A stretch of 34,170 nucleotides of DNA, taken from contig JANQHJ010000077.1 of NCBI GenBank assembly GCA_028282745.1, positions 1 to 34,170 on the forward strand. The letters are read 5' to 3'. The notes under the pieces are model-generated. The model was not told where the DNA came from and searched no databases. It saw nothing but the letters and a program-made list of their open reading frames with translations. Both the position numbers and the translations under genes were made by a program. Positions within the stretch are counted from its first letter, which is position 1, and each line of letters opens with the position of its first letter. Shown piece after piece: positions 4,216 to 28,936 of the stretch. This DNA comes from Sedimentisphaerales bacterium. Its GTDB lineage: Bacteria > Planctomycetota > Phycisphaerae > Sedimentisphaerales > Anaerobacaceae.

Positions 4216-4956
4216 ATGGGCCCAGTACTAAGCGGCTTAACTAAGTTACAGAGCGTGGAAAATCGCCTAAGGGTGATAAAGAACAAGCTGGCAAGATGCA
4301 GGCGAAGCGTTATTTTACAGGAAAACCAGGTTCGAACCCTGACGAACAGCCTGGAAGCCAAAAAGGAAGAGATACAGCTTACAAAGGTCCAGTCCGACCG
4401 GCTGGAACTCGAGCTAAAAAGCCGCGACGAGGCCATCGCCAAGCTCCGGGCATCATTGAACTCTGCAAAAACAAACAAGGAATATGCTGCCGTCCTGACC
4501 CAGCTCAATACAACAAAAGCTGATAATTCCAAACTCGAAGGCCAGATCCTCGATCTAATGAAGGATATCGAAGCCGACGAAGCTGAGTGTCAGCAGATTG
4601 AGGAGCAGATCGCTGAGCAGAAAAAAACGCTCGAAAACACCAGAACCGAATCCGAGCAGCAGGCCGTAAAACATCAGGCTGAGATAGACGGAATCCAAAA
4701 GGAGTGGGATCAGGCTGCAAAGGACGTACCTGAAGAGGCACTTCATATTTTCAAACGAGTCGCTGAAACCTACGACGGAGAAGCGTTATCTATCGTCGAA
4801 GAACAGGAAGAAAACTCCGCCGTTTATAGCTGCGGTGGCTGCTTCATGTCTATCACCCCGGAAACGGTAAATTTACTGATGACGAAGGATGACATTATTA
4901 GGTGTCCGAATTGCACCAGGATTTTGGTATTAAGTGTGACGGGTGAACAAACTTAA
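4216..4956 (+). CDS. Coiled-coil protein with C-terminal C4 zinc ribbon (COG1579 type)
   Basis: A 246-residue protein. Residues about 10-175 form a long, heptad-rich coiled coil dense in Lys, Glu, Gln and Leu (for example LRVIKNKLARCRRSVILQEN). The C-terminus carries a four-cysteine zinc ribbon, C206xxC209 and C230xxC233, spaced as in the COG1579 family of putative nucleic-acid-binding proteins. A perfect AAGGAG lies five bases before the ATG. The function of the family is not established. In several bacterial groups such genes neighbour an RNase HI gene, and the same pairing occurs here 63 bp downstream, which suggests but does not prove a shared role in RNA or RNA:DNA hybrid metabolism. Confidence 0.88.
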   Translation: MGPVLSGLTKLQSVENRLRVIKNKLARCRRSVILQENQVRTLTNSLEAKKEEIQLTKVQSDRLELELKSRDEAIAKLRASLNSAKTNKEYAAVLTQLNTTKADNSKLEGQILDLMKDIEADEAECQQIEEQIAEQKKTLENTRTESEQQAVKHQAEIDGIQKEWDQAAKDVPEEALHIFKRVAETYDGEALSIVEEQEENSAVYSCGGCFMSITPETVNLLMTKDDIIRCPNCTRILVLSVTGEQT

Positions 4957-5010: not shown

Positions 5011-5017
5011 AAGGGAG
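5011..5017 (+). promoter_or_regulatory. Ribosome binding site that bears on the start of the RNase H-PurN gene
   Basis: AAGGGAG lies only two bases before the GTG at 5020 but eight bases before an in-frame TTG at 5026. Spacing favours TTG as the actual initiation codon, which would remove two residues. Confidence 0.5.
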
Positions 5018-5019
5018 TA

Positions 5020-6102
5020 GTGCATTTGGGTAGTCAGATCAGTCACTTAATAGTTTATACAGATGGAGCCAGCAGGGGTAATCCCGGGCCCGGGGCAGCG
5101 GCTTACGTGCTGCTCGATGGGCATGATAAAGAAGTATCAGCTCGTGCGGTATTTTTAGGTGAGTGCACAAATAATGTCGCTGAATATACGGGATTAGTTA
5201 AAGCTCTCGAAGAAGCCAACGATCTCGGGGCTAAAACTTTAGAGATTTTCAGCGACAGTGAGCTGATGGTCAAGCAGATAACCGGGCAGTATAAAGTTAA
5301 AAGCGATCTGATCCGGCCTTTATTCGAACAGATAAAGGAATTGCTGGCACAGTTCGATAACTGGAGGATCGGGCACGTTAGAAGAAATAATAACAAGCGT
5401 GCAGATGAGCTTTGTAATATCTGTCTCGATAGAGGTGAAGATATTAATACCGAACCTAAGAATTTGACTAAGGGACAGAGGCATTTACGGTTAGGGGTAT
5501 TGGTAAGCGGTGGAGGCAGGACGTTAGTAAACATCCTTGAATGTATCGAACGTGGTGAGCTGGACGCTGAAGTGCCGGTCGTGATCTGTTCCCGTTCACA
5601 AATCAAGGGAGTTGAGCGAGCTAAAAAAGCCGGCTTGAAAGTAGTGATAATTCGCAAGAAAGATCATCCGGATATAGACTCGTTCAGTAAGGCAATCGAA
5701 GATGAATTAATACAAGAAAAAATCGATCTGGTTATTCAAGCGGGCTGGCTTTGTTTATGGAAGATACCTGAACGGTTGACCAATAAGGTTATGAATATTC
5801 ACCCGGCATTGTTGCCGAGCTTCGGCGGTAAGGGCATGTGGGGTCATCACGTTCACGAGGCTGTATTGGCGGCGAGTTGCAAAGTCAGTGGCTGTACGGT
5901 ACATTTTTGTACGAATGAATACGATGACGGCCCGATCATTGTACAGCGATGCTGCACAGTTGAAGAAGGTGACACAGCAGATGATCTTGCCGATCGTGTA
6001 TTTGGGCAGGAATGTATTGCTTATCCACAAGCTATAAAGCTGTTCTCACTGGGACGATTGAAAGTCGAGAATAAAATAGTCAAGATATTGCCTGGGGCTT
6101 AG
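5020..6102 (+). CDS. RNase HI-like / phosphoribosylglycinamide formyltransferase (PurN) fusion
   Basis: A 360-residue protein with two enzyme domains in one frame. Residues 8-137 are an RNase HI fold with all four acidic catalytic positions: D15 in YTDGASRGNPGPG, E55 in NNVAEYTGL, D79 in FSDSEL and D129 in KRADEL. Residues about 156-360 are a PurN-type GAR formyltransferase, with the catalytic trio N259, H261 (MNIHPALLPSF) and D302 (YDDGPI). The nucleotide loop SGGGRTLVN replaces the SGNGSN of E. coli PurN, and an insertion GGKGMWGHHVHEAV follows the HPALLP motif. The first domain would cut RNA in hybrids or act on short RNA; the second makes formyl-GAR in purine synthesis. The joint (residues about 138-156) is short, and no stop or frameshift lies between the domains. 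It follows the zinc-ribbon gene by 63 bp. Confidence 0.9.
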   Translation: MHLGSQISHLIVYTDGASRGNPGPGAAAYVLLDGHDKEVSARAVFLGECTNNVAEYTGLVKALEEANDLGAKTLEIFSDSELMVKQITGQYKVKSDLIRPLFEQIKELLAQFDNWRIGHVRRNNNKRADELCNICLDRGEDINTEPKNLTKGQRHLRLGVLVSGGGRTLVNILECIERGELDAEVPVVICSRSQIKGVERAKKAGLKVVIIRKKDHPDIDSFSKAIEDELIQEKIDLVIQAGWLCLWKIPERLTNKVMNIHPALLPSFGGKGMWGHHVHEAVLAASCKVSGCTVHFCTNEYDDGPIIVQRCCTVEEGDTADDLADRVFGQECIAYPQAIKLFSLGRLKVENKIVKILPGA

Positions 6103-6106
6103 TAAA

Positions 6107-6595
6107 ATGAAGCTGAATAAAAGGCAAAAAAGAATTATTGCCGATTTCATTGTAGTTGTAACCGTAACGATTGCGCTTGTCATCGGTATCACAAACTTCA
6201 AGGATCATGTCAATCGTTCCGAGGGTAAGCGAGCAATAACTCATCTTGGCGAGATAGTAGTTAACTATAGAGAGCAACACGGCTATGTGCCCCCAGAACG
6301 CGTGGTTGAACAGATCAAAGATAATCTGGAGGGTAGGGCAAGACTTGGCAAATTGACTTACCGGGGATTGTATGCCGACCTTAGCGGTAAAGAAAAAGAG
6401 TTGTTGGCCTATACGCAAGAAAACTACAGAAGCTGGTTCATTGAGCCGGGCTTTATAGTTCTGTGGGTCACAGATATCAAGGGCATAGGGCAAAAGACAA
6501 CAGAATATCAAGTGGAATGGATAGCTAAAGATAAGTTCCAGGAGCAGCTCGATAAGTATGAGACAGACTACGAGAGATCACTGCGAGGGAAATGA
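6107..6595 (+). CDS. Small single-pass membrane protein of unknown function
   Basis: A 162-residue protein I do not recognise. A basic start (MKLNKRQKR) precedes one hydrophobic segment at residues about 11-30 (IADFIVVVTVTIALVIGIT), then a soluble domain of about 130 residues, predicted outside the cytoplasm, with the stretch ITHLGEIVVNYREQHGYVPPE. The shape (short basic start, one N-terminal helix, then HGYVPPE) is reminiscent of pseudopilin-like proteins, but no prepilin peptidase site (G before F with Glu at +5) is visible, so I do not call it one. It begins four bases after the stop codon of the RNase H-PurN gene and is almost certainly in the same transcript. It converges with clpC, 99 bp away. 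Confidence 0.75.
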   Translation: MKLNKRQKRIIADFIVVVTVTIALVIGITNFKDHVNRSEGKRAITHLGEIVVNYREQHGYVPPERVVEQIKDNLEGRARLGKLTYRGLYADLSGKEKELLAYTQENYRSWFIEPGFIVLWVTDIKGIGQKTTEYQVEWIAKDKFQEQLDKYETDYERSLRGK

Positions 6596-23592: not shown

Positions 23593-23629
23593 TCATCGTT
23601 CTGCCAAAAAGATACAAGGCAGGCGATGA
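23593..23629 (+). promoter_or_regulatory. Hairpin covering the start codon of the methyltransferase gene
   Basis: TCATCG 23593-23598 pairs with CGATGA 23624-23629, and CTGCC 23601-23605 pairs with GGCAG 23618-23622. The 11-bp stem hides the ATG at 23626 and part of the ribosome binding site (AAGG at 23616-23619). This layout could limit translation of the methyltransferase, or serve as an operator at the DNA level. Confidence 0.5.
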
Positions 23630-24615
23630 GTATGAGTAAAAAGACATTAAACAAAAATCTCCATAAAGCAAAGAATGCCAAAAAGGATGAGTTTTATACT
23701 CAGCTCCCTGATATTGAAAGAGAATTGAAACACTATACGCGGCATTTTAAGAATAAAACGGTTCTTTGCAACTGCGATGACCCGAGAGTGAGCAATTTTT
23801 TCCACTATTTTTCATACAATTTCGAGGAACTCAAACTAAAGAAGCTCATTACCACCTGCTATAAAAATCAGGATATGGAACTGTTTAGCCGGAATAAATC
23901 AGAAAAGGCAATCTATCTGGAATACGAGGGCGATAAAAACAACAACAAAGTTCCAGACATCGAAGAGATTGGCATTAAACACTTAAAATCAGACGGCGAC
24001 TTTCGCAGCGAAGAATGTATTGAACTGTTAAAACAAGCCGACATTGTTGTTACCAATCCGCCTTTTTCATTGTTTAGAGAGTATGTCGCACAGTTAATTA
24101 AATACGATAAGAAGTTTGTAATTATTGGCGCCTACAATGCAATATCATATAAGGAAATCTTTCCTCTAATTAAAGATAACAAAATGTGGTTGGGTTATGG
24201 GTTTAAAGGTGGGAATGCTTACTTTCAAACTACGCATGCAAGGAAGTTCGCAAAAGGAGTTTACAACGAAGAAACAGGTCTTGTTAAATTTAGAAACGTT
24301 ACTTGGTACACCAATTTAGACATTGCTAAACGCCACGAGAAATTTATTTTTTACAAGCAATACAACAAAGATGAATATCCAACTTACGATAACTACGATG
24401 CGATAAATGTCAACAAGACTAAGGAAATTCCCGCAGACTATGACGGGGTTATGGGAGTGCCAATAACATTTTTAGATAAATACAATCCAGACCAATTTGA
24501 AATTATAGGCATAGACAGACCTTTAGTAGAAGAAATTACTGGCAGAGTGAGTCGTTTTAGAATTAACGGTAAAGAAATTTATGCAAGAATAGTTATAAAG
24601 AATAAAAGATTATGA
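23626..24615 (+). CDS. EcoRI-family adenine-specific DNA methyltransferase
   Basis: A 329-residue N6-adenine methyltransferase similar in size and layout to M.EcoRI (about 326 residues). The family-type start KNAKKDEFYTQLPDIEREL is at residues about 15-34; a SAM-site stretch LCNCDDPRVSNFFHYF spans about 47-62; and the catalytic NPPF motif is at 144-147 (VVTNPPFSLF). The later FRNVTWYTNLD and GVMGVPITFLDKYNP stretches also fit the family. It methylates adenine in duplex DNA with SAM; the recognition site cannot be read from the sequence. No EcoRI-type endonuclease gene is present: the downstream gene, overlapping by 4 bp (ATGA), is a DUF262-HNH protein. A second in-frame ATG lies at 23632. Genes of this pair are AT-rich compared with the flanking housekeeping genes, which suits acquisition. 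Confidence 0.92.
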   Translation: MSMSKKTLNKNLHKAKNAKKDEFYTQLPDIERELKHYTRHFKNKTVLCNCDDPRVSNFFHYFSYNFEELKLKKLITTCYKNQDMELFSRNKSEKAIYLEYEGDKNNNKVPDIEEIGIKHLKSDGDFRSEECIELLKQADIVVTNPPFSLFREYVAQLIKYDKKFVIIGAYNAISYKEIFPLIKDNKMWLGYGFKGGNAYFQTTHARKFAKGVYNEETGLVKFRNVTWYTNLDIAKRHEKFIFYKQYNKDEYPTYDNYDAINVNKTKEIPADYDGVMGVPITFLDKYNPDQFEIIGIDRPLVEEITGRVSRFRINGKEIYARIVIKNKRL

Positions 24616-25694
24616 AAATAGAACTTAAAGAGATTACAGTCCGTGAATTGACGGAGGGTTATGAAGATAATGCCGAGGGTGGTGTTGTCGGCTTTGGCGG
24701 CAGGCTGGATATTCGCCCGCCTTACCAGCGGGAGTTTATTTACAAGGATAAACAAAGAGACGCGGTTATAACTACCCTGACAAGGGATTTTCCGCTTAAT
24801 GTGATGTATTGGGCGGTTCGTGATGATGGTAATTTTGAAATTATAGACGGCCAGCAGCGAACGATTTCGGTTTGTCAATATGTAAGCGGCGATTTTTCAT
24901 ACGAAAGAAGATACTTTCACAACCTGCAGGATGACGAGCAGGAGCAGATACTTAACTACAAGCTGATGATATATTTTTGCAGCGGCACCGACAGCGAACG
25001 GCTGGATTGGTTTAGAACCATAAACATAGCAGGTGAACAACTTGCCGACCAGGAACTGCGAAATGCCGTATATGCAGGCTCGTGGGTAACAGACGCCAAG
25101 AGATATTTCAGCAAAACCGGTTGTGCTGCTTATGGTATGGGTGGTGATTATTTAAGCGGAACAGCAATACGTCAGGACTATTTAGAAGCTACCATTAAAT
25201 GGATTAGTAATGATGATATTGAGCATTATATGGCCAAGCATCAGCACGAGCCAAACGCAAATGAATTGTGGCTTTATTTTCAAAGTGTAATTAATTGGGC
25301 CAAAGCAGTATTTCCAGGGTATCGCAAGGAGATGAAAGGCATACAATGGGGAGTTCTTTATAATGAGTTCAAAGACCAAAAATTTGACTCAAAGAAACTT
25401 GAAGAAGAAATTACTAAACTGATGGAAGATGAAGATGTTACGAATAAAAAGGGTATTTACCCGTATGTTTTAACTCGAAACGAAAAGTATTTGAATATCC
25501 GCGCTTTCAGGCCTAAGCAAAAAAGAGAAGCGTACGAAAGACAAAAAGGGATTTGTCCGGCCTGTAAAAAACATTTTGAAATTGAAGAAATGGAAGCCGA
25601 CCATATCACACCCTGGCACGAAGGTGGAAAAACAACGGAAGATAATTGTCAAATGTTATGCAAAGAGGACAACAGAAGAAAAGCGGGAAGATAA
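24612..25694 (+). CDS. DUF262-HNH nuclease (GmrSD/SspE-like effector)
   Basis: A 360-residue protein. The N-terminal DUF262 (ParB/Srx-like) domain shows RPPYQREFIY with PYQR at 37-40 and IIDGQQRTISV with DGQQR at 79-83, the two signatures linked to nucleotide use in GmrS- and SspE-type proteins. The C-terminus is an HNH nuclease with a Cys4 zinc site: C315xxC318, H331 in EADHITPWH, N345, C346, C350 and N354. DUF262 proteins usually carry DUF1524 nuclease domains and act in defence against modified phage DNA; here a canonical HNH replaces it. The ATGA overlap with the methyltransferase implies coupled translation and joint function, most likely a restriction-modification-like unit. The residues needed for nicking appear intact. 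Confidence 0.9.
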   Translation: MKIELKEITVRELTEGYEDNAEGGVVGFGGRLDIRPPYQREFIYKDKQRDAVITTLTRDFPLNVMYWAVRDDGNFEIIDGQQRTISVCQYVSGDFSYERRYFHNLQDDEQEQILNYKLMIYFCSGTDSERLDWFRTINIAGEQLADQELRNAVYAGSWVTDAKRYFSKTGCAAYGMGGDYLSGTAIRQDYLEATIKWISNDDIEHYMAKHQHEPNANELWLYFQSVINWAKAVFPGYRKEMKGIQWGVLYNEFKDQKFDSKKLEEEITKLMEDEDVTNKKGIYPYVLTRNEKYLNIRAFRPKQKREAYERQKGICPACKKHFEIEEMEADHITPWHEGGKTTEDNCQMLCKEDNRRKAGR

Positions 25695-27625: not shown

Positions 27626-28936
27626 TCATATTTTTTCGTCGTCAACAAGCATAAACTTGATATCAGCCTCCGCGGCTACAGCATCGCCGACGATAGCCTT
27701 GCACTTACATTGTGCCGTTCTGCTTCTTACCCTGTCGGATTCTGCGGTAAGAACAAGCTGGTCGCCCGGTACAACAGCCTTTCGCAACTTCACATTATCC
27801 ATACTCAACAAAACCGCAAGCATACCTGTGTGTTCCAGCTTCTGGGCAAAAAGCAATCCGCACATCTGGGCCATTGCTTCGACGATAAGCACGCCCGGCA
27901 TGACAGGCGTACCGGGGAAATGCCCCTGGAAAAAATGCTCGTTGAAAGTTACGTTTTTAATACCTTTTATCTTATGGTCACCTTCTATCTCGATCACTTT
28001 ATCCACAAGCAGGAACGGATACCTGTGTGGAAGTATTTTCTGTATTCTTCTTATATCCAGCACAGCATCGGTGCCGAACTTTTTCATTCTCTCGGTCTTT
28101 TCGGCCAGTTCGTAAAGCTTTCTCGCTAACTGCTGGTTCAGGCTGTGGCCACTTTTGTAGGCAACGATCCTGCCGCTTATTTCTCTACCGACAAAAGCCA
28201 GGTCACCGATCAGATCGACTATCTTGTGCCTGACGCATTCATTAGGAAATCTGAAGCTGTTCTTGATAGGGCCATCGGAATTTATCACGAGAACTTCACG
28301 CGGGCTAAGGTGGGTACCTATACCACGTGACTGAAAATGCTTTGCCTCTGCTTCAAGAAGAAAAGTTCTGGCGGGAGCAAGATTCTTTTCAAAGCTTTCG
28401 GGGCTGACGCGACAGCCGTATATCTGTCTTCCTATCCCTGTGTGGCCTGTGTAATCAAGGTCATAAGTTATGCTCAGGGCATCTTCGTCATTTGGTAAAG
28501 CGTAAATGGATGCCCCACCGGTATTGATACTGATAGGCTCGGTAATTTTAAATTGTCTTTTCTCGACATCGAGCTTTGCGACCTCGGCTTGTTGTAATAA
28601 TTGCAGAAATTTAATACTGCTGCAATCCAGGCCTGGCAGTTCAGGTCCATGCAGTTCGATGGTTAGATTATCGATGCCCAAAGCGACAACCGCCGCCAAA
28701 CAATGTTCGGTCGTATCGATCGTCACGGCGCCTTTTTTAAGAGTAGTTCTTCTCGGCTGCGGGGTAAGGTTCAGAGGGGAAACGCTGATCTTTACCGGCT
28801 CGGCTACATCGGTACGAATGAAATTTATACCGGAATTCGCCTCGGCAGGTTTGAAAGCTAACTGTGCCGGCTCACCAGAGAATAATCCCTTGCCGGAAAC
28901 CCTTACCTCATTTTTTATTGTCGTCTGCAGCTTCAA
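27626..28936 (-). CDS. lpxC/fabZ: Bifunctional LpxC deacetylase / FabZ dehydratase
   Basis: A 436-residue fusion. Residues 1 to about 285 are LpxC, the zinc deacetylase that commits UDP-3-acyl-GlcNAc to lipid A. The zinc ligands H78 (TTEHCLA), H237 and D241 ([10 protein letters not shown]) and the catalytic His H264 (KSGHSL) are all present. Residues about 296-436 are FabZ, the 3-hydroxyacyl-ACP dehydratase of fatty-acid synthesis: [14 protein letters not shown], with catalytic H339 in [11 protein letters not shown] and E353 in IVEAMAQ. The two compete for 3-hydroxyacyl chains, so the fusion may balance lipid A against phospholipid. The same fusion is known from Bacteroidetes and some Planctomycetes. 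The start overlaps lpxD by 29 bp, implying coupling. No frameshift separates the domains. Confidence 0.97.

Follow-up and report, generated by a model that had tools for sequence, protein, structure and literature searches.

The closest known analogue of the gene described here is the mycobacterial RNase HI-CobC protein (Rv2228c / MSMEG_4305; NCBIfam NF005567, PRK07238), in which an N-terminal RNase HI is followed by a CobC-type phosphatase. According to the accessible part of PMC7466739, that fusion is reported only in Actinomycetales, its linker is variable, both of its domains are under purifying selection and can be dissociated in vivo, and its authors favour drift as the explanation for the joining. 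The window analysed here, a stretch of 34,170 nucleotides from a Sedimentisphaerales bacterium (Planctomycetota), carries a gene of comparable build. Its N-terminal half is an RNase HI of the same structural type (TMt 0.92 and 36% identity to 3hst), residues 9-145 of the product align with profile positions 3-140 of NF005567, and an unrelated metabolic enzyme again stands at the C-terminus behind a variable linker, with purifying selection on both halves. In contrast to the mycobacterial protein, this C-terminal enzyme is PurN (Formyl_trans_N), and the range of the fusion lies in Planctomycetota; against NF005567, the model of the bifunctional RNase H/acid phosphatase, the product scores 119.4 bits with a cut-off of 326, the RNase HI being present and the phosphatase domain absent. 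A literature search, with most subscription papers outside its scope, returned no description of an RNase HI-PurN fusion, which is apparently undescribed in the literature searched.

With a probability of roughly three in four, we regard the product as a bifunctional housekeeping enzyme whose two functionally independent domains sit on a flexible tether. This reading draws on the conservation of the fusion, its intact active sites, purifying selection, the sole-copy status of its halves in the window's genome and three related genomes that lack the RNase H half and possess a different RNase HI. PurN adds a new partner to a type of RNase HI fusion already on record, and the chain most likely holds two housekeeping enzymes that work independently.

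The original prediction of a single chain combining RNase HI with a PurN-type formyltransferase was borne out by one continuous frame of 360 codons devoid of internal stops, by Pfam domains in both halves and by a PurN model score above its cut-off. Translation probably starts at TTG 5026 rather than at GTG 5020, because the candidate ribosome-binding site lies 8 bases from the former and 2 bases from the latter. The coordinates of the gene, its parts and its neighbours are collected in Table 1.

Table 1. Features of the RNase HI-PurN locus, in positions of the window.
Feature	Position	Strand	Remarks
C4-type zinc-ribbon / coiled-coil protein (CT398/DUF164-like, COG1579 type)	4216..4956	+	Pfam Zn_ribbon_9 1.2e-12; conserved upstream neighbour
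GGGAG, candidate ribosome-binding site	5013..5017	+	8 bases before TTG 5026; sequence and scan
RNase HI-PurN fusion gene	5020..6102	+	360 codons from GTG 5020; 358 from the likelier TTG 5026
RNase HI domain, residues 10-138	5047..5433	+	Pfam RVT_3/RNase_H; catalytic D15, E55, D79, D129; fold match 4e19, 3hst
Linker, residues 139-155	5434..5484	+	length and sequence vary among relatives
PurN (GAR formyltransferase) domain, residues 156-360	5485..6099	+	TIGR00639, 3auf fold match; N259, H261, D302
GGKGMWG insertion, residues 269-275, after HPALLPSF	5824..5844	+	five residues beyond 3auf, 2ywr and human GART; also in standalone PurNs of the phylum
162-codon ORF, N-terminal hydrophobic stretch	6107..6595	+	begins 4 bases past the stop codon of the fusion

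The N-terminal half matched Pfam RVT_3 (residues 14-134, E 1.9e-21) and RNase_H (residues 10-131, E 1.5e-14) and displays both the fold and the D-E-D-D active site of RNase HI of the RVT_3/Rv2228c type. Foldseek matched this half to 4e19 (TMt 0.95-0.96) and to the Rv2228c RNase H domain solved as 3hst (0.92 and 0.96), and the best solved matches were Halobacterium RNase H1, LC11 RNase H1 and that same Rv2228c domain. Identity over the RNase H domain amounts to 44% with the Halobacterium-type enzyme (4e19) and 39% with LC11 RNase H1 (3u3g, TMt 0.89), the D-E-D-D residues being common to all; in both of these solved proteins the match is confined to the RNase H domain and the PurN partner is absent. 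Judged from its sequence, this half would cleave RNA in RNA-DNA hybrids, for which its complementary distribution with classical RNase HI, described below, is indirect support.

The C-terminal half matched Formyl_trans_N (residues 157-339, E 1.6e-31) and reached 154.1 bits with the NCBIfam PurN equivalog TIGR00639, narrowly over the curated cut-off of 150.1; six of the eight relatives tested (144-167 bits) also passed it. Its Foldseek matches are GAR transformylases, 3auf (TMt 0.89) among them, and the best solved matches are the enzymes of this kind from Symbiobacterium, Aquifex and human. Fold, N-H-D active-site residues, HPALLP motif and length are common to the fusion and to PurN/GAR transformylases (TIGR00639; 3auf, 2ywr, human GART domain), the differences from the solved enzymes being the RNase HI in front and a loop longer by five residues. 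N259, H261 and D302 we take, as did the original prediction, to be the catalytic Asn, His and Asp of PurN. These residues and the four catalytic residues of the RNase H half were all present as predicted and are invariant in 90/90 distinct complete fusions. The C-terminal half would be the GAR formyltransferase (PurN) of the cell's purine synthesis, predicted to formylate GAR with 10-formyl-THF.

A different amine substrate had also been proposed for the PurN half, on account of a supposedly unusual SGGGRT loop and an insertion after HPALLP. Both features exist: at the insertion the protein is five residues longer than 3auf, 2ywr and human GART, and this segment is near-invariant across the fusions and modelled less confidently than the core (pLDDT 75-78 in blocks 261-280). 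Neither feature, however, is special to the fusion. The classes SGGGRT, SGSGRT and SGGGTT predominate in standalone PurNs of the phylum as well, and in all 45 distinct standalone stretches compared the loop classes and the insertion length were matched, 33 of them showing a strict GGxGMWG-like pattern and the remaining 12 being same-length variants by eye. The fusion and six of eight relatives moreover score as PurN, and the genome has PurD and PurH and no PurN besides the fusion. A change of substrate brought about by the GGKGMWGHH insertion and the SGGGRT loop is therefore very unlikely, and it was abandoned as the main reading. A further insertion of ~23 residues occurs directly after HPALLPS in the PurN half of one related fusion (G453, locus L162, 1161-2519, minus strand).

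Apart from the fusion, neither a PurN nor an RNase HI was found in the window's genome, at an assembly completeness of ~94% that keeps this count from being absolute. No second RVT_3 or RNase_H match was detected in this genome, and its other Formyl_trans_N protein, on contig C61, reads as Fmt, the methionyl-tRNA formyltransferase. PurD and PurH both score over their cut-offs, so that the pathway context of PurN is present, and the question whether another purN or purT exists in this genome is answered by the finding of no second PurN and no true PurT, the best PurT score being 46 bits with the cut-off at 502; such sub-threshold matches are taken to be other ATP-grasp enzymes. The purH match (G000:C77:14237-15829, locus L149) contains one TGA. 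An apparent lack of canonical RNase HII was also considered and rejected, as a divergent protein of 319 residues on contig C134 (L148, 1489-2445) scores 41.2 bits as a whole protein, over the cut-off. It bears the motif IDEAGYGP at a site where RNase HII usually has IDEAGRGP, and similar proteins of ~320 residues occur in many relatives.

Our search for the fusion in other planctomycetes revealed it in 134 of the 161 genomes of the window's order and in six of the families of that order. This count comprises 120 full-length matches (one of which, in G398, has a TAA inside), 8 partial matches across the domain boundary and 6 genomes with long linkers or an insertion; G453, G465, G466, G468, G469 and G499 are fused on reading of their loci. 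Genus g306 and G499 had been candidates for unfused genomes, with matches starting at 146-153, and were reassigned since their loci show the fusion with linkers of ~34-56 residues. The remaining 27 genomes include standalone PurNs in seven members of family f2 and three of family f3 (G127, G311, G331). Five f2 genomes (G515, G517, G518, G519, G523) gave only matches of 1e-41 or worse, with no query position given, the match in G402 is cut inside PurN, and G450, G467, G504, G508 and G511 have weak or fragmentary matches only; among the 161 genomes searched, G431, G432, G497, G506, G521 and G529 gave no match. In the scan of genome contigs, the best 80 of 579 relatives comprised 72 with the full fusion and one with a contig-cut fusion (L069), that is 73/80, together with one locus cut by a contig end within the PurN half (L070) and six unfused ones (L074, L077, L079, L080, L081, L082). 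No full-length RNase HI-PurN fusion appeared outside the order among the matches listed for 392 genomes of the phylum, evenly sampled, and 397 genomes of the class, to E ~1e-55 and ~1e-67, respectively, depths at which a strongly diverged fusion might be missed.

The window's assembly consists of 163 contigs, a circumstance in which an assembly or frameshift artefact might be suspected. The same architecture nevertheless recurs in 73 of the best 80 loci and in 134 of the 161 genomes of the order, including the single-contig genomes G287 and G420-G424, and these independent assemblies refute such an origin, leaving it practically no probability. One record titled Candidatus Kuenenia stuttgartiensis (L039) contains the full fusion, probably through a binning or naming error. 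A candidate for a partial fusion outside the order (G551, query 94-357) was discarded, as its N-terminus is a HEPN domain. This protein, from the same class (locus L213, 1551-2582, minus strand), joins HEPN (PF05168, E 2.1e-14) and PurN in one frame and was seen in one genome only.

Both halves of the fusion are under purifying selection: Nei-Gojobori dN/dS medians are 0.21 for RNase H and 0.15 for PurN, with maxima of 0.68 and 0.42, as calculated from the 65 of 4005 pairs with dS of 0.05-1.0 in both domains. Both halves accordingly look functional as far as their sequences tell. The linker, predicted to be shorter than 20 residues and found to span ~17 between the end of the final RNase H helix at 138 and the start of the initial PurN strand at 156 in the model, behaves differently. 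Among the fusions it ranges from 8 to 56 residues (median 13), and its mean pairwise identity is 25%, against 57% for the RNase H domain and 72% for PurN (90 distinct complete fusions). The AlphaFold2 model, built with 36 sequences, has a mean pLDDT of 89.5, mostly >90 within the domains and <50 at residues 148-150, and a pTM of 0.62, which amounts to two confidently modelled domains whose mutual orientation is unsettled. In locus L151 the linker contains an apparent translated sequence that we take to be a dispersed repeat. Variable length and this repeat-like linker fit a passive tether.

Nucleotide-salvage coupling or co-regulation had been suggested as the rationale of the fusion. One part of this suggestion stands, as in a genuine two-enzyme fusion with intact active sites the two activities are necessarily produced together; biochemical or salvage coupling was not supported. 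A functional coupling would have the RNase H half tie purine synthesis to replication or transcription, through hybrid removal and nucleotide supply, or would have one half regulate the other. Such a role would be in line with the retention of the fusion by most of the order, with purifying selection on both halves and with the constant place after the zinc-ribbon gene, relatives of which are encoded close to rpoD, dnaG and rnhA in certain bacteria according to the accessible part of PMC3372290. It is opposed by the variable and poorly ordered linker with its apparent translated repeat in L151, by the lack of a confidently predicted domain orientation and by three complete genomes of the same order that dispense with the RNase H half, keep PurN in place and have a classical RNase HI elsewhere; we consider it unlikely. 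We infer two enzyme activities with no obligatory cross-talk between the halves, an independence that resembles that of MSMEG_4305, whose RNase HI and CobC domains are dissociable in vivo according to the part of PMC7466739 consulted. Retention across six families speaks against complete independence and may reflect an advantage of making both halves together.

Alternatively, two separate proteins might arise through translation starting inside the linker or through proteolysis. In-frame start codons occur in 44/90 linkers and are accompanied by a ribosome-site-like sequence in 7/90 (7.8%), a frequency not convincingly over that of control windows within the PurN domain (n=720), where any start was found in 68% and a start plus site in 3.3%. 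In the window, the in-frame starts at residues 108, 149 and 161 all stand without a ribosome-site-like sequence. An internal start in the linker was thus rejected, and the production of two separate proteins has a slim chance at best.

As to the origin of the bifunctional enzyme, purN most likely became joined, within one planctomycete order, to the RNase HI gene that followed the zinc-ribbon gene, and the fusion would persist because the genome then usually has no second copy of either half. In a comparison of 20 related genomes, hand-chosen for completeness and kinship, a classical RNase HI was found in 7 of the 8 genomes that have no RVT_3 type (G368, G356, G095, G034, G198, G127, G331, G311) vs 2 of the 12 that have one (one-sided Fisher p 0.003). 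The only exception among the eight, G356, has neither type, and the fusion and a classical RNase HI occur together in G423 and G466.

Family f3 contains both states. G527 and G528 are fused, and in the complete genomes G127, G311 and G331 PurN comes immediately after the zinc-ribbon gene; no RVT_3 match was found in these three genomes, and their classical RNase HI is located elsewhere. The simplest reading is that the RNase H half was lost in f3 once a classical rnhA had made it redundant, a direction of change that we infer. This replacement parallels the mutual exclusion of RNase HI and HIII through redundancy described in the accessible part of PMC1950709. In the PurN tree (67 rows), the standalone PurNs of f3 fall among fused rows (92/88), G127 adjoining the fused G527 and G528 (83/95), and those of f2 stand beside f3 and f4 (87/91). 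The fused rows do not form one clade in this tree, the bootstrap of which was not fully settled; in the AU test neither one clade of fused and f3 rows (p-AU 0.317) nor one of fused rows alone (0.15) was rejected, so that the tree is compatible with a single origin as well as with fission or two origins. A tblastn search of plasmids with the PurN half gave matches of <60% identity only and was left out of further use.

The zinc-ribbon gene precedes the fusion in 86/87 distinct loci with enough flank. The downstream ORF, present in 42 of 85 such loci, gave no Pfam or NCBIfam match. In the part of PMC3372290 consulted, a figure legend lists rnhA among the genes coloured around zinc-ribbon (DUF164) homologues, Planctomyces maris being among the bacteria shown, and PMC8469502, in its accessible part, names COG1579 and COG0328 among DUF34 neighbours and fusions. 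In family f2, 11 of 13 genomes yielded an RVT_3-type RNase HI, which stands directly after the zinc-ribbon gene in 10 of the 11 loci (L185 shows none), and the standalone PurN of seven f2 genomes is not adjacent to that gene. All 11 of these RNase HI proteins (L170-L172, L174, L175, L179, L182, L183, L185, L187, L188) have a C-terminal extension of ~110 residues with at best a sub-threshold cupin match, in 2 of the 6 proteins scanned, possibly representing a second fusion at the same locus. That the zinc-ribbon/RNase HI locus is a recurrent site of fusion, with CobC in Actinomycetales, PurN in most of this order and a cupin-like domain in f2, and reflects a shared role rather than drift, the zinc-ribbon protein for example bringing RNase HI and a passenger enzyme to sites of transcription or replication, seems distinctly doubtful.

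With this fusion the order becomes a second lineage, after the actinobacteria, that has RNase HI attached to a biosynthetic enzyme unrelated to it, and most of the order has inherited the attachment. Together with the genomes that have apparently reversed it and taken up the classical enzyme in place of this RNase H, it makes the question of selection or drift testable by comparison. For annotation, a record named PurN in this group may conceal the only RNase HI of a genome.

Elsewhere in the window, two adjacent ORFs (23626-25694, plus strand) read by translation like a DNA modification methyltransferase and a DUF262/HNH-type protein and are possibly defence genes. A 436-codon ORF (27626-28936, minus strand) reads by translation like LpxC fused to FabZ, a known fusion.
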